From positions 22,534,703-22,598,702 of the forward strand of contig NC_135256.1 in assembly GCF_964204865.1 (NCBI RefSeq): a stretch of 64,000 nucleotides of DNA, written 5' to 3'. Every line of letters starts with the position of its first letter. Position 1 is the stretch's first letter. Made by a program: the position numbers and the translations under genes. This stretch comes from Styela clava (taxonomy: Eukaryota > Chordata > Ascidiacea > Stolidobranchia > Styelidae). Under the pieces are notes generated by a model. The model was not told the DNA's origin, ran no database searches, and worked only from the letters and a program-made list of their open reading frames with translations. Positions 26,201-63,227 of the stretch are shown here, piece by piece.

Positions 26201-27247
26201 TGTTATATTGTTACTTTGTAATTTTAACTGTAAATAATTTATATTTCCAAGGTTATTCGATTAAACGATTTGAAAATCACGAAAGTAAATTCTCACTTCT
26301 GCAAGTTGGTGCTTCTGGCATCCAATAGGCAGAGAAAGGTCCATGTAAAAAGTCTGGTTTCAATTCACAAGTTCGTCTGCTTGCCCCACTCAGCTTGTAA
26401 CCTGCTTTGCATCTGTAGGTGATGGTCTTCCCAACCGCAAACGATTGTTGATTTCCACCACTGTGGCTTCCGTGGGGAATTCTTCCTGGATTTGAGCAGT
26501 AAGTTGGAGTGGTTGGGTACAGAGTGTCATCGGTGGGCGGGTAGTATGTATTATCTGGCGTTGGGTAATGTTTTGGTTCATAAGGTTTCGGATTGTAAGA
26601 ATCTGGTTTGTACGTATTTGGTGGGTATACGTTGGGTATGTCTGTAAATAAAACGAACAAAATGATTTCAATAAATGTGTCATCTTTAAAGCATTAATAA
26701 CAGAGAGACACAATGTTTTTATAAATAAAATAATAAATAGGAAACGCTTTTCGTCAGATTAAATCAAAATCTGTAATGTCAATAATGTATGGTTGTTTCT
26801 ATTCAGCAAAATAGGTCTAAACTAAATATAGCTCATATCGAATGCTCAAAATCGAGCAAAATTTAGTGTATATAGTTCCTCAAATTAAAAACAATCTGCT
26901 ATCAGACATCAGAACTAATTTCAATTTTCATCATTTAATCTTGGATTTATTTTTAAATTTTATTCTATGAAGCTTCCAAAATTTCAATTTTTGGTACCAT
27001 GTTTGATTTTACGACAAAACAAAAGTATAAATTATGAGTGGAAGGAATTTTTTCATCAATTAAGGTTTCCTATAACATCTATCAGAAAATAGCCATTTTG
27101 ATTTTTTTGAAAGCTGTTTCAATACTGGACGCAAATTAAATGTTTTTCGGTATACTCACAGTCATCGCCCGTGTTGTAGAAACCATTGTCATCTGCGTAG
27201 GACAATCCTAGAATAGTTGCTACAGCAACAAATCCGAACAGCTTCAT
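14085..27247 (-). CDS. secreted multidomain protein: 2 sushi, 20 EGF-like, somatomedin B
   Basis: Twenty-four coding exons with GT-AG borders. In transcript order: 27247-27160 (signal peptide), 26641-26297 (Pro/Tyr stretch, sushi 1), 26087-25902 (sushi 2); EGF exons 24667-24545, 24263-24141, 24031-23912, 23089-22967, 22792-22673, 21652-21530, 21354-21235, 20704-20582, 20406-20287, 19929-19807, 18965-18846, 18290-18177, 17841-17728, 17603-17484, 17321-17199, 16793-16677, 16587-16462, 16090-15965, 15566-15444, 14550-14425; and 14275-14085 (somatomedin B, stop). Every internal border is phase 1 and the sum is 3237 nt, 1078 residues. There is no transmembrane segment, so the protein is secreted, probably matrix or humoral. 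Sushi plus EGF plus SMB recalls SVEP1-like mosaics, but this order matches no protein I can name. A TATA box lies 43 bp above the ATG. The last exon also holds a donor-like GTAAGA after the eighth SMB cysteine region, so a further 3' exon is possible. Confidence 0.85.
14425..18290 (-). other. EGF-like exons 12-20
   Basis: Nine exons of 38-42 codons, each phase 1-1 with six cysteines: 18290-18177, 17841-17728, 17603-17484, 17321-17199, 16793-16677, 16587-16462, 16090-15965, 15566-15444, 14550-14425. The first two share PCDDH and form an older pair. Those at 16090 and 14550 are also a pair (FPCE..VCDP.ATCED and GKPGHCK). The exon at 16793-16677 is the most divergent and lacks the usual aromatic-Gly stretch between Cys 5 and Cys 6. 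Confidence 0.85.
19116..19764. mobile_element. hAT-type non-autonomous element, intronic
   Basis: Terminal inverted repeats CAGGGTGGTCC and (from the other end) CAGGGTGATCC. Flanks are atatacca at 19108-19115 and atgtacca at 19765-19772, an 8 bp target duplication with one mismatch. The ends hold the GGCCCGC-type GC-rich blocks common in hAT MITEs. It lies between the A and B exons of the fourth EGF pair. No transposase frame is seen. Confidence 0.75.
21829..22324. mobile_element. hAT-type MITE with perfect 8 bp target duplication
   Basis: It starts CAGGGGTCAACAACTTACGG and, from the other strand, CAGTGGTCGGCAACCTTTTG. The octamer gcttagac flanks it at 21821-21828 and 22325-22332. The homologous intron near 20885-20910 reads gcttagacagttcg without any insert, a natural empty site. 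The 496 bp element therefore arrived after the EGF exon pair was duplicated. Confidence 0.9.
23592..23701. mobile_element. 110 bp palindromic MITE with 8 bp target duplication
   Basis: Inverted termini GGGGCTCCAGAAGTATGTGC and GGCGCTCCCAAAGTATGTTC. The octamer gtcactca flanks both sides (23584-23591 and 23702-23709). A related element occurs at 51584-51797, and a single half-like piece may be near 8250. Confidence 0.85.
23912..24667 (-). other. EGF-like exons 1-3
   Basis: Three exons (24667-24545, 24263-24141, 24031-23912) of 41, 41 and 40 codons, each with six cysteines in EGF order. The first two are close relatives: both contain DGYGGHKC and a GYT..YG.GC end. All start x-(A/V/I)-(I/V)-(N/D)-P-C. 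The calcium-binding EGF consensus is not met. Confidence 0.85.
25080..25433 (-). pseudogene. possible decayed exon(s), von Willebrand A-like remnant
   Basis: Between sushi 2 and the first EGF exon, an acceptor-like TTTTTAG is followed by a frame with CEHHGNC that stops after 23 codons. In the next frame comes [12 protein letters not shown] and, later, [13 protein letters not shown], resembling the start of a vWA domain but with the metal-site DxSxS replaced. Further fragments appear in a third frame. The gene model works in phase without this block, so I treat it as a relic. The vWA assignment is tentative. Confidence 0.25.
25902..26087 (-). other. exon for sushi/CCP domain 2
   Basis: Exon of 62 codons, phase 1-1, acceptor TTTATCAG and donor GTACGT. 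It reads through a complete sushi pattern: [31 protein letters not shown] and EPNCI, giving four cysteines and the conserved Trp. Only 62 residues long, it forms one intact module following sushi 1. Confidence 0.85.
26297..27247 (-). other. 5' exons: signal peptide, Pro/Tyr-rich segment, sushi 1
   Basis: Exon 1 encodes a short basic start and a hydrophobic core ([16 protein letters not shown]) followed by DDN, a standard signal peptide. It ends in phase 1 at a GTGAGT donor. Exon 2 opens with about 45 residues in which Pro and Tyr recur (YKP, YNP, YEP, YPT, YYP), a low-complexity linker or possible crosslinking site. A sushi/CCP domain follows, with Cys in [26 protein letters not shown] and APTCR. 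Confidence 0.85.
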
Positions 27248-41103: not shown

Positions 41104-44100
41104 TCAACATCCAGTGCATGATGGATTGGGACGTTCTGTTTGACCGCACTTCGACTGTGGTCGAACCTGATAAAAAAGCAAAGAATTTCAAAAAGGTATT
41201 CACATTTGTTATGTGCATCATTTACGACTGAGAATCTAGCAGCCTTCATAGAGAGTTGATATGATGATACAATGTGAATACATTGGTGATGTTTAAACCC
41301 AATGTTTGGGCGGGAGCAACACAGTGTCCACCCCAACTTGTACTTCATTCATTTATGCCTAAAAAATTTGCTATGATTAAATTTTGTAGGCAAATTTTGG
41401 ACAACTGTTGAATTATCAAATCAGGTGACTAATAGTAACTATAAGCAAATTTTGTTCACAAAAACGAATATAAGCAATATCTTCCAGCTCCGTCAAAACT
41501 GCTAATAACGTGGTGTAATAAAAAAAAACTTTTCGACATGACCTTTGGACATTTGTTGTAGCGCAACCGATTGGACTTAGCGATACTTGGCGATAATATT
41601 CCGTTACTATCAAGTAAACAAAAACTAGAAATGCTGGTTGGCACATAATAAAAAAAATAAATAATAAATAGTAATAAATTTTAACTTACTTGTTGATACT
41701 TATCACCTCCTACGTTAAACCAGCAGCTTCTAGTATCTCTGCATAATCCGCCCATTCTCCTACACTTCCATTGGGTCCAAACATATGTCGTTGCTGAAAA
41801 AAAGTTATTAGATAAACAATCATACAAATATGAACATGTACTTTATTTATCAATGTATATATATATATAGTTTTAAATTTATCTACCTACGTTGTCAGAT
41901 ACGTAAACGTGTATTCACTGATTATTTCATTCACTGATTATTTCATTTCACCTTAGATTTGATACTATTATGATGATCTCACTGATTTTCAAAAACGAAT
42001 TAGACCAACGATAGTTTGTTACATCCACCCAACTTGCACTTAAGCGCAGACATTTGCTATAAGTTCTCATAGGAAAAGATCTACATTTGCACGTATGGAC
42101 TCTCTGTGTGTTTTGTTATTTCAAAGCACTACTAGTACTGAGAATTCAGTTCTGAAGTTTTTAAAACATAATTCACTCACGACACTGTGTGGGACCACAT
42201 GGTACGAATCTTTGTGTAGAAGCTTTGGCATCGCCACATAATATAACTGGAGCAGACCGACCGTCAGGGAATCGACAACGTCTTATTTCTTCCCGAAACA
42301 GATTTGGACCACAAGATGCTTCACATTGTGTAATAGGTGACCAATCGGTCCAGTACGCATCACCTGAAACTTTAGGTAAAATGACGATATTATGATACTC
42401 AGTAGCATATTTGCACTGAACCAAAAATTATTTTTATAGGTTATTTATTGTTTGAGATTTCAGTGCTTACGATTTAGGATTAGTCAATGATAGCCATAGA
42501 ACACACCTGGTGGCTGTGGAAGACATTGAGATGGTCTGATGCAGCGATCACTTTTTTCATCTGGCTTTACCATTCCAGAAGGGCAGACGCATTTTTTGAA
42601 ATTGCATCCACGTTGACATCCAACGGGATTTCGATTTGCACAAGTAGGCTGACACATAGATGGGCAGAGTTGATATATTTTTCCGTTTTCGCAATTCCCT
42701 GAAATGTTAAGTTTTTTAAATATTTTAAATGCCTAATTCTACAAAATTAATTATGTTCATCACGCGGAGGAGACGTTGGGCAAACTTCTATATGAAACCA
42801 GTACTTCAGCGCTGAAACATTATGTCCGGTATTTCGAAACATAAAGTCAGTAAGTAAATTGGATTTGACAACATGTTCCACGTCAAAGTAGAAACTTTAG
42901 GCAAATTGTTTGTTAAAGTAAGGATTCATTTCACAAAAGTGGTTGGTTCATGCCTAATTTTTTCTTGAAAATCACATAAGATGTTGGTCAATTATCTAGT
43001 TTAAGGAAACGGAGAAATATATATACGACGTAATAAAAGTTGCTGCTTTTCAGGCTCATTAATACATATACTGCTATAGCGAGTTTTTGGAGCAACTGAA
43101 ATATTTGTCTGTTCGATATTTACATATCTGCTAACAAACATTGGTTAACCAGTAGACTACTGAATATAACTCACGTGGACATGCTCCTTCTTTAACACAT
43201 TCCTTGTTTTCGAGACTTAATTGAATGTAACCAGTGGGGCATCCGCAAGTATATTCAGACGTACATTGCACAGAACACGGAAAAGGTTTTTCCGCGCATG
43301 TTGCTGGACATTTTGATTTGCACCTCATCAATACTCCGGGAGCTTTACAATCTGTGGATGAAAAATATTTATTAGAATCTCGTACCATGGAAACTGTTTT
43401 TAGGCCTATAACATATACTATTGGTCTTTTAGGAGCTCTCTTATGGATCAGGAAAAAAAAAAATTACCAGATGATGTTGATGTTGTCTCTGGTTTTGTAA
43501 TAGACGGACGAGGCTCAGTTATCGTTGAGTCGCACGTATTTATGATTTTACGTAGATATACATCACTGCGAGTTGCCAATTTGTATACTTCTACTAAATC
43601 ATCTCTCCAATCTGATTCGGGACTTTCTTTTTCACAAAAAGTATCCACATACAGCATAGGAACGAGGCACCATTGTTCTTGCGGTATCGTAGGTACTGTT
43701 CTGAATATTGCGTAATATTTTAGCGGAATTTTTGTATTATATGGCATCATACACACTGCTGTAGTCTTTAAAATTCTGTTCGTTTTAAAAAATATTTTGA
43801 CAAATTAATTAATCTAATTAATCTTTCTTTATACTTTCATTTCTTGCAATTAATATTTTTCAATTACATGACAGAATTATATCAAAATTTGAATAAAGTA
43901 ATTTGAGAGAGCATATCACACCACATACTATATCTCTTTAACATGTAAATTAGGTAAATTAAAAAATAACGATTTTTTGATATTACCGACAATAGGAGTA
44001 ATGATTCTGAAGAAAGATAGAGACGCTATTTATATCGAATCCGTTCCATGAAGGAAATTGACTAGTAGAAACTTGAACATTTTGTACTAAGCAAGTCGAA

Positions 44101-45598
44101 AATGATTTCTTTTTTATTTTGATTTCTCCATGCTTTTCGTCGCTACCAATCGATTTCATCTTTCTTGGACGCACTTCAGGTGCTGAAAGTATAATAGTAA
44201 TTTTGAATTACACCGAGAAAGAAGTTGATAGTGCTAAGTGCGCCTCTGGAAAATTAACGGAATTGTGTTAAACACAGCTAATATATCATTGAATATTTTA
44301 CCTGATGTTATTTAATATAAATGTTCTGTTGCTTTTTATTTCAAATGCTGTGCTTACGTATCAATAAATTACGTTTATTTTCTGTTAAGCAGTCTCACCC
44401 TCTATTACGTAATTGTTACGTAACAATAGAGGTAGACACTACTTGCACTTCACTACTTGAAAAGTGTTCGCGTTTTTTTCGGAACTCCTAGTTCCGACTC
44501 CAACATTTAAGGTTAAAATCAGAGTATTTACCCCAGCAAGTTCCGTCCCAGTCACATATACATTGTGCTAATGGTGTCTCAAATGGAGAGTCATCCTTTA
44601 GCAGAATTGGTATTGCATTAATCCAGCATGAGGCAACGTCGTAGATTCCTCTACAAATTAATTATAAAATGTACGCTAATGACGTAATTGAAATTGGATA
44701 ATAAAAAAAAACAGTAAACATCTCTTTTCGAAAATACTTTATCTGACTTTCCCGAAATGTACTCAATATGCGAATTCTCGAGGTGAAAAGATTTTCCTAT
44801 ATGCGATTAAACCTATTTATACTCATTTAGCAATATTCTTGATAAAACCTAAATTATTATGTCAACGTTAGTGCCATATTGTTACAATCATGTCGTATTT
44901 TTTCAATCTAGTTAGTACATGATTCAAAAAACAAACATAAATTATGCTTGAATAACTTACGCACAAACCCTTTCTCTTATCCTTTTGTACCAAACACTGT
45001 CTCTTAGAACATATACCACAACACTTCGCAACGAAGGTAAAATTCCACTGGACGCTTGGCGAAGTTGGGGGCAGTTTCCCATAAAATTTGCGAGATCCTG
45101 ATCGAAATTAATCGCATTTCGTCTACTACATCCTGTTTATATTGAAAAATGCATTCTTTTATACTCGTATTGCGTATAAGCAGATTGTATATATAATAAA
45201 ATTACCTAACACCGCATAGTTTGTCAGCAAAAAGTTATTTTAGGCAAATATGTTGAATACATGAATGTAAGTGTGTGTGGAATGTGAAGGGATATTGTGT
45301 AGTGAGTTCAATGATACACGACGACATCTTTACAAATAAATCAACATCAAATTCTTACAGAAAAACCGAAGCAAAAAAAATCATATTGAGCATCGCAATT
45401 CTAACCAGTCATTATTGTCATTGTATTTCAACACAAATTGTTCGTGATTTAAGAGGCATAGATTTTTGCTTTTCAAAAAATATAAAATCAACTCAAAACT
45501 CAATTAAAATATTCAAATCAATGGTACTTTATCTTACCTTCTGTAAATTTGCAACAAGCGGCAAGAGAAACAGCAAACACCACAAAACTAATTTTCAT
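41104..45598 (-). CDS. T3: secreted protein, novel N-module, two TIL domains, one TSP1
   Basis: Ten exons in transcript order: 45598-45538, 45132-44961, 44650-44532, 44182-43987, 43700-43468, 43351-43175, 42698-42507, 42363-42181, 41793-41690, 41166-41104. Border phases 1,2,1,2,1,1,1,1,0 agree throughout and the sum is 1500 nt, 499 residues. Domains: signal peptide (SFVVFAVSLAACC); an unrecognised N-terminal module of about 200 residues shared with T2 and T1 (PSLRSVV, LRDSVWY, ASCWI, CICDWD); a Thr/Ser/Pro linker; two ten-cysteine trypsin-inhibitor-like domains (residues about 261-319 and 320-383); a TSP1 repeat (YWTDWS, CEASCG, about 384-444); and a basic Cys-containing tail ending CTGC. No transmembrane segment. 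Likely an extracellular matrix, mucus or defence protein. The protease-inhibitor role is inferred from the TIL fold only. Confidence 0.85.
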
Positions 45599-45620
45599 AT
45601 TTCTTTCTGATATAAGTAGG

Positions 45621-45630
45621 CTTATATATA
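45621..45630 (-). promoter_or_regulatory. TATA box of T3
   Basis: Minus strand reads TATATATAAG about 23-32 bp before the start codon at 45598. The very short distance implies a minimal 5' untranslated region, or a different start of transcription. Confidence 0.4.
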
Positions 45631-45718
45631 GATACTGTTATTCAAACCCGGTTTCAGCCGATATTTAGGAGTATCATACGCTATGATCAATAAGTGAGTA
45701 TATATATATATATATGTA

Positions 45719-46023
45719 TCAGGTTGGTCGTTAAAAAAGCAGAAAGTATTTAGGTCAAATGCAATCACGTATAAAATGCGTGCTAACTCATTTCTTTCTC
45801 GATACGTTTTTATTTAGTTTAGGTTCTGGATTGTTTTCGGTTGATACCTTTTGGGTTGTACTAGATTAAAACACTGCTCTGAAGTACACGGACGACATAT
45901 TGAGTCTTTAATTGAGCTGTAAGTATGGTATAACATATTATGCATTTGAAAAAACTTTGTAAAAAGTTATTGTTTGTAAAGTAGTTGTTTGACAAATATT
46001 CTGTTTTTCTAACGACCACTCTG
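45719..46023. mobile_element. TA-flanked inverted-repeat element (Tc1/mariner-like MITE)
   Basis: The left end TCAGGTTGGTCGTTAAAAAA and, from the right end, CAGAGTGGTCGTTAGAAAAA form imperfect inverted repeats over about 30 bp. TA sits on both outer sides. About 305 bp, no transposase frame. It lies just upstream of T3. Confidence 0.6.
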
Positions 46024-48295
46024 TATATACATATATATATAATTGCAATCTAAAACTGCATTGGTATGATTACTTCTATCTTTCAACTTAGAAGAAGATA
46101 TAATGAAACAATCCTGAGATATAAAACTAAGTGGAGTCTTTTAATTATCTAAAACTTGTTATAGCATATATCGACCCTTAATACTCAACAGTTAGTAATA
46201 ACAAATTTCATTCTATTCATAGATTAGGATAAATGGCTTCAATGACGAAGCATTGGATTTCCGTATGGCCTGCGGGCAGGCGTCATTTAATATGAATATA
46301 AATCTTACATCAAACAGTTGTGTCCATTACCATTTATTGACTTTTCGATTTTCTGATAAATAGAAGTTGTAATGGGTGCTACAACGAAAACATGCTCACG
46401 TGGGCTACGATTCTTGCAATCGAATGTAAAAATGTAGACTTTCGCTCTAAATCGTTATACGATTCATTAAAATATTATGCTTAAAAACAAGTACACATCT
46501 CTGTAACGCCATTATCACTTTTCTTTTAGTCGACAACATCTAACAGCAGGCATATCTGATATACATTTGTTTACCTGGTATAGCATGGTGTAACTGGTAT
46601 AGCATGATTTATATATAGAATCTTGCATGAAATCTACTTTCTCTATAGGAGTCTTCACATCAGCCCACTAAAACTGTCAGAAATAATATTTTCACAAAAT
46701 ATAAGTCTGTTATTGGTTCATTCAATAACGTCTTTGTTCACAAATAGTAATAAATTGATAGTAGTTTAATGGTACGGCGATTGTTGGATTTTGAAAATCT
46801 TCGAGGTACGATTAGCGATGACCTTTTTACCATCGTCTTTTATTGGAAACATCCTTGAATGCAAACCGCATAGAACCGGGCTAGTAAAACCCGTATTTTT
46901 CTCGAAAGTTTCCATTCACTCTCAGATATGTGCTCTACCGCAGTAATTCTCCAAGTGGTCGATATCGCCTCCAGATGATGAATGAGATGAAACAGGGGCC
47001 GAAAGCTCCGGAGGGGGCAAAAAGGGGACGATAGCGCATTTTCGAATAGTCAGAATTAGAATTATTGCAAAATTTGAATTTGAAATTTGAAATTTGAAAA
47101 TTGAAAATTGAAATTTGAAAATTTGAAAAATTGTTTATGTGCCGATGTGGACTTGCCGATCTGGACTTGAGTAATATTTCCCTAATTTTGAGTTCATGAG
47201 GTTTTTTTTTCAAAATGCGCCTCGCCAAAAAATGTTTGTGAATCAATACACTCCTACTATCTCACTGTGAGGAATATAACAGCAGAGATCGCTATCGAGG
47301 TGTACTCATTCCCTTCGGCTTTGTATCTGTCATACCGGACTGACAGACCCCTATTCCCTATTTATGCCAATAATTTGAAAATCCGCCTGACTTTAAGTTT
47401 GCCGAAGGAACAAAATATCCCAAAAGATTTATAAATGAAAGTAGTGCGAAATTGGTGGACTCATTCTTAAGGTCTTCTGACAGTGGCGTATCTAGAGAAA
47501 ATGGCACCGATGGCAAAGTTTGAATATTCCCCCCAAATATTTTCCGGTGGTCCCTAAATCAATAATACCGTACCGAATGTAATCTTTTGTTGTATATAGG
47601 CACTTCGATTCATGCCCAGCAGTTTCTTTCGGTGTGGATGAACGTTTAAAAATATATTGATTTTCTTTCTGATTCTCTAGTAATAAGAGTGTTTACTGCC
47701 CCTCAAATATCTAAATATCAAGTGAAGTTTAGTTGGATATTGAACGACCTAAAATAGCTTTCTAAACTTCAGATAATTAACGCTGTATTCAGCCAGACTA
47801 CACACAACTTCTTTTCTTTCTATTCGAAACTACCGTAGGCACGACACACAGTCTGATACCACTGCCCTAGGGAACTCGAACCCGCACATTGCAATCAGAG
47901 ATCTCTTGCAACTTAGAGTTTAGATAATAGTTGATCTCGCGTTGTTTACTTCAATTTTAAACTTTTTATAATAAATCATGTACGGCTGCATGTGTACCTC
48001 AATGGAACCAGAAAAATAAATATCCGACTGGAAAAGCACAATAAAAACTGGAATCAAACTTTATGCCAGATAGTTTAAAAGTCCATTTTCAAATCAAGGT
48101 TTCATTTATTTCAATAGACAAATTTACACTACTTTTATAAACTTCAAAAACATATAATTGGTGATTTTGATTTGTTGTACATCATCTTCAATAAACTTGC
48201 CCTACAATTCAATGAATATATGGCAGTGTAACACTCCAAAAAGTAGCACAAATTAACATTAAACCAAAACTTTATTAGTAGTTCGATCTAGTTAG
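46024..48295. other. intergenic between T3 and T2, with low-complexity tract
   Basis: No exon seen. At about 47068-47135 there is a run of gaaatttgaaaattgaaa-type units, a minisatellite-like tract. Near 46990 a small GC-rich patch (ctccggagggggc) could be a decayed hAT end. Confidence 0.45.
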
Positions 48296-48327
48296 TTTAT
48301 TCTTGTCCACTTTTCTTTTGCCGCCAT

Positions 48328-51300
48328 CTAACCTATAAAATGTCAAATTCAAGTTTTTAATTGAATTGAATGACATGGTGATGTGGAACGATAAATATTT
48401 AATGCACGATTTTTACTACAATATAATTACTCAAAATTTTTTGTTATAATTATTTTTTTTGTTATATTATGATCTCAAGTTTACTTACGTGTCAGATCTT
48501 TTGGTGCTAAAACGATAAAATATGAATTAATAAAATACATAAACTTCAAACGGAATATTTTCATCCCCAAACTTGTTTTGAATAATTCCTGAATTTTAAA
48601 ATGTTTTGAATTGTAAAGAACATATTCAATGCGAATACTAATTTCGCCTGAATGACAAATTGTAAAATGTCAGGAATACATTTCATGTTGTTTGTCTGAC
48701 TTGATGTATATATACTTTAAAATATACAGTACTATAATAATAATATTTAATTGCGTGCACTTACGACATGGTGGCAGGAAACAAACTGAATTTCTTTTAT
48801 CGCTTCCTTCACAGAATGAAGACGGCACTGTTTGTCCATTTAACATGCATGACCTTTTTTCATTTCTCAAACTCAGCCCACAGATCGCTCCACATGGTCT
48901 ATTCTGTCGCCAAGTGCCCCAGTTAGCCCCCGTTCCACCATCTAGAATGGAACGAATTTTAAACATAGTCTGTACTCATTACCCGGAATGTGATGGTATG
49001 TATTTGCACTTATGCACTTACGACATGGTGGCAGAAAACAAACTGAATTTCTTTTATCGCTTCCTTCACAGAATGAAGACGGCACTGTTTGTCCATTTAA
49101 CATGCATGACCTTTTTTCATTTCTCAAACCCAGCCCACAGGTCGCTCCACATGGTCTATTCTGTCGCCAAGTGCCCCAGTTAGCCCCCGTTCCACCATCT
49201 AGAATGGAACGAATTTTAAACATAGTCTGTACTCATTACCCGGAATGTGATGGTATGTATTTGTAATAAGAAGGGGACGTAGCGTTTGGACCACATCGGC
49301 TTGTACAAAAACTGGCGCTGTAATGTTAATGTAAATTCGATAATTACGATTAAAAGGATAACAAACGTCTAGACGTCTACCAACAAAAAACGTTTTTTTG
49401 AACTATTGAAATCTAAAATGGTGCCTTCAACAGGCATCCTGTTTTTAAGAGTAAGATAGTTTCTGTGAAATGAATTGGACAAATGAAGATTCCTACCGCC
49501 TTCTGGACATTTAGCAACCGCTCTCCCCAAAGGACTGTTTTGTCTGGCGTAGGCTTTGAACACATTTATCTGATCTTTTCTCCAATTTGAGTTAGGTCCT
49601 GACTTCGGACATAAACTGTCGATGTAAAGTAGATCGAGCTGACACAAATGCTTCCGAGGAATGTTAGGAATCGTTCTGGGCGTAGAAAATTTATATGATA
49701 ACAATTCAGTCACATTAACATGGGAATCAATTTATAAAACAAAAAATAAAGTTGTAATCAATACCCTGCATATTTTGTCAGCAGCAGCTTTAAGATTTCT
49801 TCCATTCCCCTCAACCACGTGCAAAAAAACAATTTAGACCAATTTAGAAAGAAATGTACTACAAACTTCTGGATTGTCAATTATGAAGAGAAAATTACAA
49901 TTAACAATGGAAACCAGTAATGTTACACTCCAAAATAATGCTCTGAATGTTGTCATGCAATTCTTGGCCAATACTATTAAATTTTTTATATATATTCAAA
50001 ATACCCCTAATTCTGTGTGGTGTGATAGTTAGTTATCGGTGCGTTTGAGCTGAATTATTATATCCGCAAGATGCTGCTCTTAGATGACCTATTTATGCTT
50101 CTCTTTAGCGCACAATACTATTTTCGTGATACAGTACTGTCTACTCTACACTCTACAGTTTGTGGGGAGAAAAAAACAACTATTCACGATGAGGAGAAGG
50201 CCTTGTGCGTTGTACAAAATTGATCGTTTACATTCTTGTGTGTGAAATATGTATTGAACTAAGCTTCTTCTGAGATTTGCTTGTTTTCAATTATTTAGTA
50301 TTACTGTTACTGCATTGAATTTTGAATGATGACGTTTGGAAAACTAGTTGTTTACAACAGGGCATTTATATGTAGTCGTAGTTCAGTAAAAATTTAGCCC
50401 TTGTCCATAAAGAGAATGGAACGGTCTATAAAGAGCGTTGGATTAACATAATTTTTTGTAAACCAAGGAATTTTGGGTTATACTTATAAACTTTTCAAAA
50501 CATCATCCTATTGGAGACGAAAATAGTGAATGAAATGATGAGTGAAATACGCACTATTGTTCTGATCATACTTCTACATTGGATATTGCTGAATCTACAG
50601 AATCAGCTTCCCTAACTCCTTTAAGGTAGTATTAAAAATACTTCAATTATATCAAATCATACAACTTCACCTGCAATACGAATAATGGTCCTGTAGAAAA
50701 ATAGAAATCGATTTTGCATCAAATCTTTGTAAAGACCGGTATTGTCCTCTGAATAGTCTTACATTTCGATCTACGCATAATAAAAAATTGCTCTGCGCTT
50801 GTCGTTTCATTCGCAGATGTTTTTCGTCCATCAAGTCAGAATCTATTGATCTTTTTTTCTTCCCAGGAGGACCTTACATTTACAGAGAATCATTTACAAT
50901 CATTTGGTCATATAAAATGAAATTGTACAGGGCTCCATGATACATATTTAATTTATGTGTAGGTGCAAGCTATTTGCAGTGAGTCTTTCATTTTACTTTG
51001 TGTCTTCCATGATGTTGACACAAGCACTATAAATAGAGCCGTCTGAATATTAACATGATCCACTATTTACTAATGTAAGTTTCCATACAATTAAAAAAAG
51101 AATTTCCATATTTTTTATATTTGTATTGGATGTTAAGATTATATCAAATTTTCCTAATATATAATCAACAGGAGTTATATAACGCTTACTCCAACATCCG
51201 TCTGAGTCCCATTGACATATGCATTTCGCAGTAGACTGTCGAAAAACTGAATCGGCGTTTAAGAGTAAAGGTAGCGCACCAATCCAGCAGCTAGCTTCGT

Positions 51301-53425
51301 CATTGTCTCCACTAAAATATTAGGATAGTTATGGTGATGTAATGACACAGAAACAAGGTATACAACTCAACTCATCGATCAAAACTATGATACATGCGGA
51401 AACGTAAAAATGTGTATATTAGAACTATATTAGAGACGAGACGAGAACGTACAACAAAACACAAAAAAAGATAGTTTTGGGGTCAGATAGTAGGTATTTG
51501 ATTATTAATACAATACTTTAAATATGCGCATAATTGATCGAAATATTCCTCTCATTAATATACTAAGAAAAATAATAAAAAATGGGTGCTCCCGAAATAT
51601 GTGCACCAAGATGCCGTACAATCTGATAACTCTAACCTAGTACATATACTATGTTCAGGTTGTGCGGCATCTTGGTGCACATATTTCGGAAGCACCCATA
51701 TGTGCACCAAGATGGCGCACAATCTGAATATAGTATATGTACTAAGTTAGGGTTATCAGGTTGTACGCCATCTCTGTGCACAAACTTCTGGAGCGCCAAA
51801 AATTGAACTATTGTTTTTTGTACCTGGCCTTGGCCTTGGCCTTACCTACTTGGAAAAAATAACGGTAACAACTTGGTTGTTTGTTAGTTGTTTACTGGTC
51901 TGCGCGTTGGTAAGTAATCAACGCGATTCGCAATCACATAACGCAAAAACGGTTGGTTGATTGCTAAGGCGTTAAGATCGTCCTTTCTTGTTTACGTATT
52001 CCGTTTAGTTTGAGCGCGGGCTTATTTACATAAAAGTTCCACTGCAAGAGTAAATAAGTAAATAAACATCACTGTTTCATATTTAGTATGCAGCATGTAA
52101 GGCACAAAGTTTTTTTTTCAGATATTTGCTGGTATCAGTGGGCCACCCTCTATTGTCGTTCAATATCACTTCACCTAATCTTCCAAATACCGCGACAGGG
52201 GAGCCTGTAGTGTCAACCTTAATTAATCAGATCGACTAACAGATGAGGCGCCAACAAATTGAGTGTTAACGATGTGACACGTTTTGGCGGCCCATCTGTG
52301 CTGTCGAGTGTATGAGTCGGCGAATCGTCGCCTAAAGAAAAGGAAAAAAAAAGAAAATAGACTAGGAATAGAATATAGGAGACTGTGACTTAATATTATA
52401 CTGTTAATAAATATCTCAGAACCTAAAGACTGTGACACTTTATCTGATAAAGAAGATATAAAGAAAGTATAGCACACCGTACTAAGACGTTAAAGGGAAG
52501 AAGAACGATAGCCAACGGTACGGCCCCTGCATTGGGTTACTGTACATGTCTTCCGCGTATCTTTGATGATCCTCCGGGTTCTTGACTGCAATCAGTGATT
52601 ATCTGGTATGATCTGACTCCAATCAGAAAGCAGTTCTTTTTGTCTTGGGGTCACCGAATGCAGGGACCGTACCGACGCGCGATCGTTTCTTCTTCCCTTT
52701 CTTAACGTCTCAGTACGGTGTGCTATACTTTCTTTAATATATATTCTCATATATTAGACAGCACAGATGGGCCGCCAAAACTTGTCACATCGTTAACACT
52801 CATTTTGTTGTCGCCCCACCTGTTCAGTCGATCTAAGTAAGGTTGACACTACAGGCTCCGCTGTCGCGGTATTCGCAAGATTAGGTGAAGTGATATTGAA
52901 CGACAATAGAGGGTGGCCCCCTGATACCAGCATATTTACTCACAAGCAGATGATGTTCTTGACAGCATTATACCATTTGCTATCTCTAATAACGCTGTCG
53001 ACTACACTTTGAAGTGAAGGTATTATCCCAAAGTTGGCTCGATTGAGTTGCTGGCATTTTCCAAAGAAATCAGCTAGTTGAAAATCTAATTCAGGTACAT
53101 TTCTCTTTTTCCGAGCTCCGCTGCTTTGGCATGCTGGGTTGAAGCATTCGGTAAAAAATTGCGTTTGTTACTATTCTTTAAAAGCTGTAGCTTATTTATT
53201 TTAGATAATGCGTTGCATGCCTAATACAAGTACACTTATGAAGGAGCAATTGCACAGAACAGTGAAATATTAGTTAATGAATTTAGTTGCAATTCATCCA
53301 AATTTTGTCCATTTGAAATAAAATTGTTCAAGTAATAAATATTCACGATAATAAGTCTTACCTTCCCCGACTCCATGCAAAGCCGTAAGCACCACCAGGA
53401 ATGCAATACTTGTTATGATTCTCAT
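48328..53425 (-). CDS. T2: secreted protein, novel N-module, two TSP1 domains
   Basis: Exons in transcript order: 53425-53362, 53133-52944, 51311-51190, 49858-49765, 49675-49497, 49198-49022, 48941-48765, 48506-48489, then a last exon near 48332. Phases 1,2,1,2,1,1,1,1 repeat those of T3. The product is about 341 residues if the last acceptor gives R-stop (TAG 48330-48328). Using the AG 5 nt further would instead add a basic tail. Domains: signal peptide (IAFLVVLTALHGVG), dibasic ARKKR soon after the cleavage region, the N-module shared with T3 and T1 (IPSLQSVV, RDSKWY, ASCWI, CICQWD, LYIDSLC), then two TSP1 repeats (NWGTW, GLRNEKRSC) at residues about 217-275 and 276-334. The exon at 49858-49765 is assigned by its W..G pattern and fitting phases; it is the least certain. 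Confidence 0.8.
48765..49198 (-). repeat. 257 bp tandem duplication of a TSP1 exon in T2
   Basis: Exons 49198-49022 and 48941-48765 are both 177 nt and almost identical, as is the intron with its branch and acceptor region. The repeat period is 257 bp. Visible protein differences are CGAT to CGAI and GLGL to GLSL. This is a very young exon duplication that keeps phase 1-1. Confidence 0.9.
51584..51797. mobile_element. compound palindromic MITE in T2 intron 3
   Basis: It reads GGGTGCTCCCGAAATATGTG to a reverse-complementary CACATATTTCGGAAGCACCC. A second copy of the arm (ATGTGCACCAAGATGG) follows at once and closes with CTTCTGGAGCGCC. It looks like two head-to-tail or nested copies of the family seen at 23592-23701. 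The flanks are A-rich, so the target duplication is not certain. Confidence 0.75.
52123..52936. mobile_element. 814 bp foldback element next to a T2 splice donor
   Basis: Two inverted arms of about 390 bp, for example ggtatcagtgggccaccctc at 52131 against its complement ending near 52928. Inner parts match too: gtatagcacaccgtactaag near 52469 pairs with a segment near 52710-52730. A central stretch of roughly 130 bp is unpaired. The right arm ends about 7 bp from the GTGAGT donor of exon 53133-52944. No transposase frame is present, and target duplication is hard to define because the palindrome runs into the flanks. Confidence 0.85.
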
Positions 53426-53429
53426 ACTT

Positions 53430-56122
53430 TTGTTTGCGATGCCCGGTGAACTTCAAGTAATCTATACTGTTTGCAACTGTGCATTATATCAGGATAATCA
53501 GTCGGTTTAAGAAAAAGGCAATAGAGAAAAAAATCTCTACGCTACCAAAAATATTCATGATATAAGATAAATTTTATGATAAATATAATGCGATTGGGTT
53601 GTTGTCAGTATGGTCCTCAAAATTTTATTTGGGGAGGGGGTTTCAAATTTGGGGGTGATAGATATTTTGTTATCAGTGATAAAAATATTTATAACTCATA
53701 AAAATGTGTTATGTATTTAACTGATCATTTTCAGCGGCATATGAGCCACTTTCTGAATAATCAAATACATTTCTATTTACTTTAGGAATTATAGTATGGT
53801 GTAACACCTAAAAATTAGGGGAGGTGTTTGAAATTTTAGTGTGGGTGTTCACCCCCCATAAGAGGGAGGGGGGGGGGGTAGGAAAATCACTGAATATTAT
53901 TGAAAATATTTTGGCATTAGACGATATGCCACATGGCATTGGGTCGTGGTACGTATATGTATTCATGTTCTATTGCTTTACTTTTTGGAAATATTGACAT
54001 TGGCATATTTTTATTGTTGTGTTATTTTGTTTAATCTATAAAATATTCCAACAGCTTCGGCTATTATTTTCTGTAAATTTACCCGTTATACAAACCCGAA
54101 GTCCCATTGTAAAGTTAGCAATGCATTTCATTTTATCGTATGTCATCTGCGGCTTCCGAGATAGAGTGAATGTATATATATTTATATATTATGTATTTAT
54201 TGGACTAATTGAAATTGTTTGAAAGGTAATGAATGAAGTTAATGAATACTCAGCAGGTTTATTCCTCAACACCAAAATAGACTTGGGTGTTGCAAATTGA
54301 CTGAAAGGTATTTTATGGGAACTACGTAGTATTGTTTACAAGTTTCGTTTTATCTTTCGTGTATCGCAAACTTGCTTGTTGCAAAAACATTTGCGGCGGT
54401 ATGTAAAAAGTACCTACTTCAAAAAATTAAAAACATTTTTATGCAATATTACTTTTTTAATTAACTCCAAGTACTTGTAAGTTATAATAGTTAAAATCGT
54501 ATGTTTATTGAGGACGGAGAGGTGTTGATCATAAACGATCTGCACAATTTTTGCGTCTTTTGTATTCAATAAAACATGAAAAGAATATTTCTCTTTATAA
54601 CACTAAAAGCCTTCTTTTTTCAAACAAAATGGTTTATACGACAGAAGTATAGTTTTGCTTTGATATATATGTGTTGACGCATGAACAGGAGATAAAAAAT
54701 GCATTTTGGCTCCATTTATGTATGATTCACAAAACGAAAGCTTTGTTTGAAAGTATTTATCCTGCATGTTGTATTTAATATTTTATCAGCTAATCAATGA
54801 TTTGTGGTAAGATAAGCCTTTAAATTAAAACAACAAAAATAATAATTTGTTCAAATGCGTCACGTAACTTGCAAACGGGACTTTCCACATTAAACATTTC
54901 TGTTATAATTATTGAACCTATGAATATTGCATATAAAATAAATTTGGAAATATTTGCTTGTCATGGTACCAGGCCGCACCAACGATTGCAATAAGTTATT
55001 TTTGAACATCGAAATCTGCAAAACTTAATGAGACAGCAAATATTGCTTTTTTCCATGCGATATAATATTTAGATATTCTTTCAACAGGATCTTTTTGTGC
55101 AGCAAACTTTGAAATCAGGCATGCGCTAGGCTTCACCAACGATCGCAATAAGTTATTTTTAAACATCAAAATCTGCAAAAATATCAATTATACAGCACAT
55201 GTTTCTGTGTTTTTCCATTGTGATCTTCTGTTTAGATATTCTTAACAGAATTTTCGTGCGCGCGTAATAGCTTGTCCAATCTGTTAAGCAACAAATGAGA
55301 TAGTGTTGATCATGATGTTTAACAAGTGATCTTCAGATTTGTGATTCCCGCGAGTTTTGTTATCCTGAATTTAAATCCTGAACTGAAATATGCAATTAAT
55401 GCGATTTAAATTTATTTGTTCCCTAAATTATCTATAACACTACCACGAGTATTTCAAATTGAGAAATGAGCATAGACATAGTTTAATTTGAGTCATTTAG
55501 CCCGACCCTACATGTCTAACAGCCTCGTCAACAATGCTTTTTCAAATCTTGTAATAGAGGTCAACTCCATACTGTGGAAGTGTAGATTGATAATGTAAAT
55601 CACAGATGCATCCTCAGGATATTCGAAACAATTTCAATTCTAGTTCTAGTAATTCATCAATCAATTGCGAAAGATTCTAGAGCCAGCTATGCTGCAGCAA
55701 ATATATGATAATGTTGTCCAGTGAAGACAGATCATCCTAATTTGAGAGCAGATAAAATGGAATACAAACATGGTTACCAACTGACACAAATTGTCCACCA
55801 TAATGTTTTATTTACCAGAAAAATATTATATACAAATACAATGCAGAAACAATCTAGATTTGAATGTACAGATCTTTAGGCAAATTTTCTGCAAGAAATT
55901 GCGTTTAGTTGGTATTGATCAGTTAGTGACTCGTCCAAGTGGTAGAATATAATTGTTATGTACGTCGTGTCTTGCTAGTCGGTGTACAGGGCTTCTAATA
56001 AATTAATCGTCTCCATGGTACTATTTTAGTTGTGGTACATGATTGAATGATATATGTTTCGACCTTGATATGGTAGTGACTTAGCAAGTATGTATAGTTC
56101 TTTTAAAAACAGAAACCATTTT
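53430..56122. other. intergenic between T2 and T1, with repeats
   Basis: No exon seen. G-rich runs occur at 53630-53660 and near 53865-53880 (a run of twelve G). At about 54970-55255 two imperfect copies of a 157 bp unit stand in tandem (caccaacgattgcaataag at 54977, caccaacgatcgcaataag at 55134). Confidence 0.5.
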
Positions 56123-58314
56123 CTACATGTATTGACGGCATTTTGATTTCACACATGTACGGTATTGGCGTGGTTGAGGACTTCTGCAGTAGCTATTAGA
56201 AACCACTTTTCCAGTCATCGTCTGGCAGTGCTGTTCCCACCAGATGCCTTCTTTCTTACAAATCGTGCTACATCCCTTAGTTGGTTTGTAAACACCACCC
56301 CACTTGTATACTAAAAATACAGTGAAAGAATTGATGTGGAATTTATCATTTCCTTGCAAATACTTAAATACTGGAACAATCTATTGAAATACATTATTGT
56401 ATACCATATGAAGACAAATTTAAAGATTTTACGTAATATTCAATTTCAGCCACAAAACATTGTATATATTTAGTTGATCGAATCATCATAATATTTTATC
56501 AATATGTTACATTTAAAACTTACGTGGTGCACAGACATTGAGTATTTTGAACATAGGACTGTCGGTCCGTGTTGCAGCTCGGTACACTGCAGCCAGATCT
56601 CTTTCTTCCCTGAAATTACAAAATGTATTTGTGCTATGCTTGTGGTTGTGATAATTTTTTGAATAAATGAAGATACAAGAGAGAACGGTCAAAAATAAGG
56701 ATATAGCTTATAGCACGACATGTGTATACACTTTAAAGAAATACAACGAATCGGTACAACGAATCGGAAGTATGAACTAAAATAGCCAGACCTTTCGTAT
56801 GAAGAATGCTTCCTTAGCAATATTGTGATTGATTCTCCATCCACTCGTCGAAGCGAAGGATACTGGCGAATGAACTTGCTGTTCACGGAATTTTTGGTAA
56901 TGCAACTCGATAACTTTTCTGGAGATCGAGACGTCGATTTGTATGCTCGTTTTGAACGCGAATTCCAAGAAGTGTATCCGGGTACTTCTGCAATCAGCCC
57001 AATGAATACATTGTAATAGACGCAGAGATTCCAATTCCTAATTTAAACTTGCCGAAATATAACGATTTTTAACCAATACATATACCTACATATCATATGG
57101 CAGTCGGTTAGCAAACATTTGAATGAGTAAAGTTCATTTATCATGTTATAGGTATACATTCAATAAATAATAATGTAGAGAGGAATACCCAAAAGCATTG
57201 ATATATTATAAATACAATTCGGAGCAAAACGATCCAAAAATACGACAGAAAATGTTTGGGTGTGAACCAAGGCGCCTTTCATATAGCCTACATGGATTTC
57301 AAACAAAGAAGGCACAAAATTTCCATTTGTATTGAATGATTATAGTACAGCTATGTTTAGTGCATAGCTGCCCATTTGTTTTTCCTAAACACGAAGAACA
57401 AGTTGTACCAAGATTTAACACGTACGAACTAATACTTCTCTGTTGAACTTCAAATACGTTTGGTATTTAAAACAGTTTTTGTGTTTTCATAAGATGATAC
57501 CGACTTGACTTGACACAAATCCGTTGGAAGATAATACCTGATTTAGTATTATGTCAGTTACCTTAAATGTAATTATCTAAACAGATCTATCTACTGCTTT
57601 TTTACAACACCTTCAACTTACTCATCATCTTGAGAGCATGTTCAGTAATACACGTTGTTGTTGGTATATGTAGAGGGGAGGTAGTCTTTATCAAATACTT
57701 CAGTTGTCTGTTCCAGCAAGTTGCAGTATCTAGAGATCCACTAAAAATAGTAATATGCAATCACAGTTTAGATTAGAAAAACGATCCATATGTCCACTCC
57801 AATAATTTACTAAAACTATAAACGCATGGGGAAAAGCGCAGAAAGCCACGTAAGCACAAAGTCTACCTTTGAATTTTAGCACTTCTATTTCAGGTCAAGT
57901 CTTTTGTGAAACTTACACACAAACCCGTCTTTTCGTTTCAATGAACCATTTGCTATCTCGTAATGTGAATTCAACAGCACTTCGTAGTGAAGGAAATATT
58001 TTTGTTGCTACCAAATGACGACACCTTGAGAAGAAATCCGATAGCTCCATATCAACATCCAAACCTGCTGCCCTTTTCTTTCTGACACCATAATGGCAAC
58101 CTAAAACAAAGTTGTCATAATATATAATGAGAAGGATGAAAATATTTGACTTGACCAATCTAATGCTAATAATATGCAGTTTTCAATATCTCTACCAGGG
58201 AAATTATTGCCCAATTTACATTTACCCTTTTTACTTGGATTCCCACTTACCTTGAGTTACGGCAAAAATTTCGACCAACACCAAATACAGAACAAAAAGT
58301 TCAATCTTTGCCAT
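56123..58314 (-). CDS. T1: third paralog, novel N-module and diverged TSP1; middle unresolved
   Basis: Recognisable exons: 58314-58251 (signal peptide, ELFVLYLVLVEIFA), 58100-57917 (YGVRKKRAAG, SDFF, PSLRSAV, RDSKW), 57740-57622 (TATCW), 56609-56524 (DLAAVYRAATR), 56310-56123 (TSP1, stop TAG 56125-56123). The first three share the phases of T2 and T3. The 57740 exon ends in phase 1 while the 56609 exon needs phase 2, so an exon equivalent to T3 44182-43987 must lie between. The first half of the next exon, present in T2 and T3, is also missing or too diverged to see. In exon 3 the CIC.WD...CW motif is lost. The TSP1 keeps six cysteines but has WGGVY for the usual tryptophan ladder. It may be a fast-evolving gene or one that is decaying. 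A TATA-like TTATAAGG lies about 70 bp upstream. Confidence 0.65.
56777..57034. other. block open in several frames, unassigned
   Basis: Inside the long intron of T1, about 260 bp of less AT-rich sequence is open in one plus frame (ending SAISPMNTL) and in two overlapping minus frames. The minus reading contains RRVDGESI and RKHSSYERSGYF. I recognise no family. It may be a piece of a transposon or a retroposed gene, and it does not fit T1 in phase. Confidence 0.3.
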
Positions 58315-60801: not shown

Positions 60802-61400
60802 TCATTGGGCTGGAGAAGCATTGATATGTTCAAGAGGTATATTTCTCCATTTTAATAAAGCGAGGTTTGGATCTGATCCATCCAATTTGCATTTCTTCAA
60901 CATGGTTTTGGCAATTTTCACTGCTGATTCTGCTTTTCCGTTGCATTGCTGGTGGGAAGGCGAAGAAGTTGCGAGCTGAAAATCCCATTTGTTTGCAAAT
61001 TCTTTGAATTGGGAGGATTTGAATTGACTTCCCGAGTCTGACATGACTATTAGTGGAATACCATGTCGGCAGAAATGTTTTCTACAAACAATAATCAATG
61101 TGTTCACTGACATTGATGATACAGGATCAATTTCAATCCAATTCGAGTAATAATCTACCATGACAATATGTGGCTTATTGTCAAGTTCAAGTTAGTTCAT
61201 TCCTATCTTTTGCCATGGTCCGATGGGGACATCTTGCGGTTGCATCGGCTCCTTGGCTTGTGAAGGTTGAATTGATGCACATATTCGACAACTTCCAACA
61301 GTATCCTCAATGTCGGAACTAATACACGGCCAATATACAGATTATTGTGCCAGTCTACGAGTAGATCCAATTCCTTTATGTCCTTCGTGCAAAGCTTCGA
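60802..61400 (-). pseudogene. retrotransposon integrase
   Basis: A zinc-binding HEGH...CRIC segment (about 61270-61400, with an internal stop) precedes the catalytic core MVDYYSNWIE, DSGSQFKS and a Glu-containing GKAESAV stretch, giving the D, D, E residues. It ends at a stop at 60804-60802. Confidence 0.8.
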
Positions 61401-61888
61401 GAGTTTTTTTTCCGCACTGGAAAAGGAATTATCAATCTTTCCCTCAATCCTTCTGACTTAAATACCAATCCTTGTTTAGTGCTTATTTCATCTTTACAGA
61501 CTTATATTCTGGTGGTAATTTATTTGTCTTTCCGTACTCTGCAAGCACTGGATCGTTTGCAGTTTCTTTGACCAGTTTTTGAAGTGTCTGAGGTGTGACT
61601 GTCATCTCACCATTTAGTTTTGTGATTTCGATTTTCACACTAAAGACGCTTGACTCTTGTGTTTGCGGAAACAATCGCTGAGCAGGTCGGCAATCCACAT
61701 ATCTTTACCTGGTTTGTAGCGCACTCTGAGATTGTATTTTTGCAAGCGAAGTCTTATTTTTTGAAGACGACGCGGAACATCTGAAATGGCTTTTTAAAAT
61801 ATTGCTTGTGATCAGATTCTACAATCACTTCAGGTAGACTAAATATATAATGGTCGAATTTCTCACAGGCATAGACTATAGCGAGCAT

Positions 61889-63034
61889 TTACTTTTCTAT
61901 TTGTGCACATCGCTCCTCTGTTTGTGTCAAACTTCTACTTTTTAATGCAATTGATTGGTCATCCTGAATAATAGCTGCACCCAATCCATATTGCGAGGCA
62001 TCGCACTGAATTTTGACTGGTTTTGATACATCAAAGTAGGCCATTACTGGGGTCTCAGTGATCAATTTCTTTATGTTTGAGAATGTTTTTTCACAATGTG
62101 GAGACCATATAAATTCAACATCTTTGCATAGCAGATTATGCAGTGGTTTGGCAATTGTAGCTAGTCGTGGCAGAAATTTGCTCAAAAAATTTACAGTGTG
62201 TAAAAATGTAGGTACATTCTTTGGCGCTGGCATTTGAATGATGCCCTGTATTTTGTCTTCATCTGCTACAATTCTTTGCTCAGTTAGAATGTGGCCCATG
62301 TACGTTACTGATTTCTGACGCAGTTCAAGCTTTTTAAATTTAAGTCGCAGATTTCTATCTTGACATCTCTTTAACAAATTGTGCGAATTTGTGTCATGTT
62401 CTTGCTCTGGGTTTCCAGTGACTAATATGTCATCAGCAATAACGAATACTCCTTTGAGATTCTCAAGTATTTGGCAAATAGAGCACTGGAAGCTTTCAGA
62501 AGATGATTTTAAACCAAAAGGAAGTCTCAGAAAAGATGATTCTTTATTCAAACGAATCTGGTGGTAACCATGTTTAGCATCTAACTTTGTAAAATATCTC
62601 GCACCATTTAGACGAGAAGCTATTTCTTCAAAAGTTGGCATTGTATAGTACTCGCGCTTTATTGCATCGTTCAGCTCTTTGCAATCTAAGCAAATTCTTA
62701 TTTCTTTATTTGGTTTGAGTACAGTTACCATCGAACTTTGCAAGTCTGTCGGTTCTAATACTGGCTTTATGATACCTTGCTGTTCCATCATGTCAAGTTT
62801 TTCTTTAACTTCGACTCGAAAAGGTTCTTGCACTCGACGCTGTTTGTGATGAACAGACTGTACATTGCTATCTATGCAAATGTGATGTGTGACTCCTATG
62901 TCACCTGGAATATCAGCAAATACTTGTGGGTAAGCTGATAAAACATGTTCCTTGCTTTCAAGCTTTTGTTCATGTTTGCTTTCCATAGACATGCAGGCTG
63001 GCTTTTCTACACGATGCAGTGTTACTAATTGCAT
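61889..63034 (-). pseudogene. retrotransposon reverse transcriptase and start of RNase H
   Basis: 381 codons open. RT motifs present: ICLDCKELNDAI, FTKLDAKHGYHQI, RLPFGLKSS and the catalytic IADD (near 62431-62442). A stretch usually found between HGYHQI and RLPFG is shortened, probably by an in-frame deletion. RNase H begins with IQCDAS, then the frame stops at 61889 although similarity carries on in the same frame. Confidence 0.85.
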
Positions 63035-63227
63035 TTTTATAGCTGATTGAATACCAAATTAAGGGATCACCTTAGTCATTTAAAAGCAAAAGGTTCAAAT
63101 TGTGTGTTTTCCCACTGTCATCTGAAAAGTTGACGTTGCCAATGGTATGCACTGATTGGCCATTATAACACATAATACTTTTATGAACCTTCTTTACATG
63201 TCTTAATCTGTAGTCAACTGTCGCCTT

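Follow-up and report, generated by a model that had tools for sequence, protein, structure and literature searches.

The question raised by this stretch of Styela clava DNA is why three neighbouring genes share one beginning and carry different ends. The stretch, called the window throughout, comprises 64,000 nucleotides (NCBI RefSeq assembly GCF_964204865.1, contig NC_135256.1, forward-strand positions 22,534,703 to 22,598,702, or C8:22534703-22598702 in the short contig names used here). A sequence-only reading had described three secreted paralogs, T1, T2 and T3, with a constant N-terminal module (N-module) and swapped C-terminal domains. The current work indicates that these genes are probably a local cluster of a dispersed, furin-processed secreted family in S. 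clava, in which a new N-module is combined with interchangeable extracellular domains. Other secreted families assembled through phase-1 exon shuffling are already known; at the centre of this one is a module that went unrecognised in sequence searches of Pfam and PDB.

All three genes lie head to tail on the minus strand, and the outer coordinates given previously proved exact, 58314 being the first base of a start codon and 41104 the last of a stop codon. By exon lengths, T1 (58314-56123) has 6 exons and 278 amino acids, T2 (53425-48275) has 9 and 393, and T3 (45598-41104) has 10 and 499. Each model begins with ATG, keeps an open frame and ends with a stop, and GT-AG borders are present at 22 of 22 introns. 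The phases agree with the sequence-only reading: exon 1 ends in phase 1, and exons 2 to 5 run 1-2, 2-1, 1-2 and 2-1. Exon 1 appears by eye to encode a signal peptide in all three genes, and the products would thus be secreted. T2 and T3 differ at 89, 73 and 137 first, second and third codon positions over 217 codons, and two family members on another contig, C17a and C17b, differ at 75, 53 and 138 over 220; this excess at the third position is that of coding sequence. Family exon profiles of 9 to 12 rows each, with the window's own sequences among the rows, recovered the exon sets of T1-T3 at E 1.5e-9 to 2.4e-28, and the remaining matches in the window (E<=1) stood at 0.058 or worse.

Exons 4 and 5 had been listed for T2 and T3 only; T1 also retains both, in degenerate form. 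Its exon 3 is without the C-x-C...CW end and its exon 5 without the first half. With conserved cysteines lost in exons 3 and 4, a TSP1 end unrecognised by Pfam and a weak fourth donor (gtctgg), T1 might be a decaying copy, leaving only two working genes in the cluster. We consider this rather unlikely, as the six exons are read without a stop or frame break and the GT-AG rule holds at 5 of 5 introns.

The C-terminal ends of the three genes are different in kind. In T3, two TIL domains followed by a TSP1 had been described, and both parts stand: TIL (PF01826) is matched at 33.3 bits against a cut-off of 24.5, in two stretches at the lax limit of E<=10, each domain having ten cysteines by eye, and TSP1 is seen from W..W and the cysteine spacing. 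T3 has a further cysteine-rich end, encoded by its last two exons, which was absent from the earlier list. The doubled TSP1 (PF00090) of T2 was likewise recovered, at 24.5 bits against a cut-off of 21.6 and in two stretches at E<=10. TSP1-like domains are characterised by a six-cysteine spacing pattern, which reads 3-10-11-9-4 in T2, 3-11-12-12-4 in exon 8 of T3 and 3-10-12-10-4 in the single odd TSP1 of T1; the last domain of T3, at 6-5-17-9-2, is not TSP1-like. The internal TSP1 and TIL exons of T2 and T3 are of class 1-1, and the last exon of T1 begins in phase 1.

The same N-module was found in other parts of the genome. A search of 376.6 Mb in 379 contigs with four protein queries gave nine further N-module genes, with exons in order on one strand, on contigs C8, C16, C17, C1 and C3; with T1-T3 the family has 12 genes, and all such counts are lower bounds. 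Some exons of C3a, C3b, C3d and C8b were chosen by eye from open frames. Weaker matches are present at C3:13.627, C3:13.651, C3:11.468, C2:17.85 and C19:8.56. The ends of 10 of the 12 genes were read, and five domain kinds exceed the Pfam cut-offs, namely TSP1, TIL, EGF (33.2 bits in C16a), Mucin2_WxxW and PF23308. The layout of a constant module with swapped ends is supported, and it extends from three genes to a family. N-module genes also cluster regionally at C3:13.13-13.65 Mb, where two of them were read to EGF-like and WxxW ends.

In a tree of 11 modules, T2 and T3 are joined (95/95), as are C17a and C17b (96/99), while the placement of T1 is unsettled; the C3d row, which has no exon 5, was dropped from the 12, and C8b forms a long branch. 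T2 and T3 thus look like a tandem pair with a common module and different ends. Alignment A2 (8 rows) was made without C3b, C3a, C3d and C8b, and alignment A3 (9 rows) without C3a, C3d and C8b.

The splice phases suggest how such combinations may have arisen. Class 1-1 modules are a signature of metazoan exon shuffling, according to PMC8001218. In T1-T3, the N-module as a whole and each of its two units (unit 1, exons 2 and 3; unit 2, exons 4 and 5) have a phase-1 intron at either border, and across the family the same module stands beside differing domains in ten genes, an apparent linkage outside the window. An all-phase splice-site scan with a simple score of our own covered 43 of the possible 48 exons of the 12 genes (exon 4 of C3d and C8b and exon 5 of C3a, C3d and C8b being left out); the highest-scoring acceptor had the expected phase for 41 of 43 exons, and the highest-scoring donor for 42 of 43. 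Among 11 domain exons outside the window, our own selection out of more, a pyrimidine-rich acceptor in phase 1 was found for 10, one of which also has such an acceptor in phase 0. The second WxxW exon had no acceptor that passed the filter. Downstream domain exons that start in phase 1 are characteristic of class 1-1 exon shuffling. Since module and ends are of class 1-1 wherever both borders are seen, they could be joined, doubled or lost by intron recombination without frameshift.

The two TSP1 exons of T2 (49198-48765) may illustrate this. A unit of 257 bp is doubled here, with 3 differences in 177 exon positions and, when flanks are counted, 4 in 251 bases. The pair could be the product of a recent duplication, which would be one such step, or of conversion, or it could be an assembly artefact.

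The N-module itself matches no catalogued module that could be found. With the N-module of the three full proteins, nothing in Pfam was over cut-off; the sole match, to Stonin2_N in T3, scored 12.9 bits where 25 are required (E 0.079). Eight rows of unit 1 matched no Pfam family, and nine rows of unit 2 matched three families, one row each, the best again being Stonin2_N (E 0.0056). PDB sequence searches with the N-module gave E 0.43 as the best match, and NCBIfam gave a single chance-level match with unit 1 (E 0.15). A well-known domain in the shared region would have offered another explanation of the layout, and nothing convincing of this kind was seen in these databases. No earlier description of such a family was recognised in a literature search.

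It could instead belong to a known disulfide-rich extracellular domain, diverged so far that sequence profiles fail to detect it. In favour of this, the profiles contain few rows and no fold can be taken from the low-confidence models of single exons. The Pfam and PDB results given above speak against it, as does the outcome for stanniocalcin (PF03298), a candidate relative: no Pfam match was found in the T1-T3 proteins, the unit-1 rows or the unit-2 rows, and the sole genome match at E<=10 lies on contig C9 (E 0.055, below cut-off), with none at the family loci. We regard a diverged known domain as possible but not probable.

Within the N-module, units 1 and 2 look homologous when their profiles are compared. 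Their hhalign score is 28.7 (P 2.1e-4), while the best of 200 column shuffles reached 18.8 and the reversed profile 12.9. At the level of single exons, the score of the match between exons 3 and 5 was reached in 0 of 100 shuffles and that between exons 2 and 4 in 2 of 100. The signal thus appears to sit where tandem duplication of a two-exon cassette would place it. Each unit is a 1-2/2-1 exon pair and therefore of class 1-1 as a whole, so that it can be duplicated without breaking the frame. A four-fold repeat with one motif per exon, suggested by eye, was not supported: the scores of exons 2-3, 3-4, 2-5 and 4-5 were at chance level, being reached in 10, 11, 64 and 57 of 100 shuffles, respectively, and only the two-fold repeat stands. 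The units are cysteine-rich and, from structure models of single exons in the window (exons 2 and 5), probably helical.

Furin-type motifs are enriched at the borders of the units. R-X-[KR]-R occurs before unit 1 in 8 of 12 genes and before unit 2 in 6 of 12, compared with once in 1,979 residues of the cores; for this count, the linker ends of C3a, C3b, C3d and C8b were taken from open frames by eye. Both motifs are present in T1 and T2 of the window, and neither in T3. Proprotein convertases may cut the linkers at these motifs if the linkers are exposed, and the sites give a handle for a direct biochemical test.

Such cleavage leads to a different view of the precursor, in which the N-module is the payload: furin would free units 1 and 2 as cysteine-rich factors resembling hormones or cytokines, and the C-terminal domains would merely anchor or target the precursor. 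The position of the convertase motifs at the unit borders fits this view, and the units are common to the whole family and duplicated. However, an N-terminal cysteine ahead of the first site in many members could hold the pieces together, and a good part of the family lacks one site or the other. An N-module acting as a released payload is unlikely.

In the preferred account, the precursor would consist of a signal peptide followed by an N-module of two tandem cysteine-rich, probably helical units, with a furin-type site before unit 1 in many copies and before unit 2 in half. Cystine pairing may keep the cleaved units linked. Ready-made extracellular domains would then have been added at the C-terminus by phase-1 exon shuffling or duplication. 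The N-module would serve as the constant working or docking part, and the TSP1, TIL, EGF, ShK-like and WxxW ends may select the partner.

As to function, the sequence-only reading had offered defence, adhesion or cuticle for such a layout; the layout is supported, and the three functions remain a guess among which nothing separates. Defence proteins of blood cells or mucosa, with protease-inhibitor and pattern-binding ends in a lineage-specific expansion, would account for the two ten-cysteine TIL domains of T3 and for the strong divergence among T1, T2 and T3. Protease inhibitor I8 is the TIL type of inhibitor. Thrombospondin type I and protease inhibitor I8 motifs were reported in expressed sequence tags of Botryllus rejection (PMC2527998), but nothing links these tags to the N-module. 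The TIL end, however, belongs to T3 only among the 10 genes with ends read, and EGF, WxxW and TSP1 suit a matrix equally well. Defence is an improbable role. A setting in the extracellular matrix, tunic or mucous surface is conceivable and is favoured over blood-cell defence or hormone-like release because of the TSP1, EGF and WxxW ends, with nothing decisive between them; taken by itself, it falls somewhat short of being probable.

Several points weigh against the account of a shuffled, furin-processed family. In the comparison of units 1 and 2 the hhalign probability is only 46%, and the match between exons 2 and 4 covers 8 columns. The helical character is drawn from just two single-exon models, both of low confidence (predicted local distance difference test, pLDDT, of 58.7 in the exon 2 model and 54.3 in that of exon 5). 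In the splice-site scan, the top-scoring site was in the right phase but sometimes off the modelled position (for example, the acceptors of T2 exon 2 and T1 exon 4), and one donor tie (C3d exon 2) fell to the expected phase through sort order. Pfam misses the TSP1s of T1 and T3, and the three ShK-like ends (PF01549) are below cut-off (13.4, 10.7 and 15.5 against 20.9 bits). The first furin motif is absent from 4 of 12 genes and the second from 6. Outside the window, the family is known from exons of the module and of the ends, and the ends would be tied to the N-module by strand, order and phase. The search match of C8b is only at E 0.67; this gene was accepted because frames like exons 2, 3 and 4 come in order. 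The proposed setting is read from the domains.

Table 1. Exons of T1-T3 (window positions) and the other N-module genes of the S. clava genome (contig positions).
Feature	Position	Strand	Content	Basis
T1 exon 1	58251..58314	-	start codon and signal-peptide-like segment, ends in phase 1	gene model
T1 exon 2	57917..58100	-	unit 1 first half, RKKR site	gene model, motif scan, exon profile
T1 exon 3	57622..57740	-	unit 1 second half, without C-x-C...CW end	gene model, exon profile
T1 exon 4	56792..56987	-	unit 2 first half, RSKR site	gene model, motif scan, exon profile
T1 exon 5	56524..56609	-	unit 2 second half, truncated at start	gene model, exon profile
T1 exon 6	56123..56310	-	diverged TSP1-like end with stop, no Pfam recognition	gene model, cysteine spacing
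T2 exon 1	53362..53425	-	signal-peptide-like segment	gene model
T2 exon 2	52944..53133	-	unit 1 first half, RKKR site	gene model, motif scan, exon profile
T2 exon 3	51190..51311	-	unit 1 second half	gene model, exon profile
T2 exon 4	50671..50872	-	unit 2 first half, RMKR site	gene model, motif scan, exon profile
T2 exon 5	49497..49675	-	unit 2 second half	gene model, exon profile
T2 exon 6	49022..49198	-	TSP1 copy 1, class 1-1	Pfam, gene model
T2 exon 7	48765..48941	-	TSP1 copy 2	Pfam, gene model
T2 exon 8	48489..48506	-	tail, tentative	splice sites only
T2 exon 9	48275..48327	-	basic tail with stop, tentative	splice sites only
T3 exon 1	45538..45598	-	signal-peptide-like segment	gene model
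T3 exon 2	44961..45132	-	unit 1 first half, R-X-[KR]-R absent	gene model, motif scan, exon profile
T3 exon 3	44532..44650	-	unit 1 second half	gene model, exon profile
T3 exon 4	43987..44182	-	unit 2 first half	gene model, exon profile
T3 exon 5	43468..43700	-	unit 2 second half, Ser/Thr-rich tail	gene model, exon profile
T3 exon 6	43175..43351	-	TIL domain 1, ten cysteines, class 1-1	Pfam, gene model
T3 exon 7	42507..42698	-	TIL domain 2, ten cysteines, class 1-1	Pfam, gene model
T3 exon 8	42181..42363	-	TSP1, no Pfam match	W..W and cysteine spacing
T3 exon 9	41690..41793	-	odd Cys-rich domain, first part	gene model, cysteine spacing
T3 exon 10	41104..41166	-	odd Cys-rich domain, end with stop	gene model, cysteine spacing
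C16a	C16:12.766 Mb		EGF and ShK-like ends
C17a	C17:11.858 Mb		ShK-like end
C17b	C17:11.866 Mb		ShK-like end
C1 gene	C1:15.973 Mb		EGF-like repeats; one scanned, below cut-offs, 20.8 bits at best
C16b	C16:8.997 Mb		array, PF23308 (THS7A/B C-terminal TSP1), 34.8 bits	Pfam
C3a	C3:13.131 Mb		two Mucin2_WxxW domains, 71.6 and 55.4 bits
C3b	C3:13.140 Mb		many EGF-like repeats	by eye only
C3d	C3:13.642 Mb		no exon 5 found
C8b	C8:9.486 Mb		least sure member

Other features were observed in and around the cluster. The second intron of T2 contains a foldback element (52124-52935) with 102-nt arms that are 94% complementary; the outer end of this element falls next to the splice donor, at a distance of 8 bases from the boundary with exon 2, and a second inverted repeat is located at 51582-51797. 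Retroelement pieces on the minus strand at 60805-63058 match integrase core, reverse transcriptase and RNase H in Pfam. Neighbouring genes or exons include a sulfate permease with STAS (1461-3128), a sulfotransferase (12724-13254) and a sushi repeat (26280-26693). Neither Rfam, at its gathering threshold, nor a tRNA scan produced a match in the window. In the genome, at least 99 TIL matches were found, with dense arrays of TIL exons at C16:19.67-19.80, C17:7.64-7.66, C3:14.36-14.40 and C4:19.55-19.59 Mb. A gene joining cellulose synthase and GH6 is a mark of tunicates. On contig C9, a cellulose synthase match (PF03552, 16177457-16177855, 26.6 bits against a cut-off of 24.7) and a GH6 match (PF01341, 16179895-16180164, 35.4 against 27 bits) lie on the same strand, 2.0 kb apart; the pair suggests a tunicate and may be such a gene.

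The spread of the family over five contigs makes the birth, duplication and reuse of a module traceable exon by exon, in the animal group closest to vertebrates. In its boldest form, which we consider distinctly improbable, the N-module would have originated in tunicates and be confined to them. It would be a mainly helical module of class 1-1 that was duplicated and then shuffled next to five or more types of extracellular domain, its furin-released units acting as paired signalling or cross-linking factors.

The nearest known systems share parts of this organisation. Like the class 1-1 exon-shuffled extracellular proteins of PMC8001218, the family has phase-1 borders; unlike them, the N-module matches no catalogued module that could be found, and an internal phase-2 intron divides each of its units. 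That source describes the class 1-1 modules in widest use as mainly beta, the share of mainly alpha ones being negligible, so that the N-module, if helical, would be unusual and, if also restricted to tunicates, an exception to that rule. Tuphoxins (PMC9395347) are phenol oxidases of tunicates in which TSP1 is combined with tyrosinase, and they occur in morula cells and the tunic. They also join TSP1, and EGF in some, to another part, and are believed to undergo limited proteolysis and to have their role in the matrix of the tunic; their constant part, however, is a tyrosinase domain, and no tyrosinase was found by Pfam in T1-T3. The oikosins, which tunicates of the genus Oikopleura secrete into the external matrix of the house, include members with TSP1, CCP, LDLa and EGF-like domains (PMC3390340). 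These tunic and house proteins resemble the present family in their domains (PMC9395347, PMC3390340). TIL-domain proteins (PF01826) are similar in exons 6 and 7 of T3, whereas the family described here is defined by its N-module.

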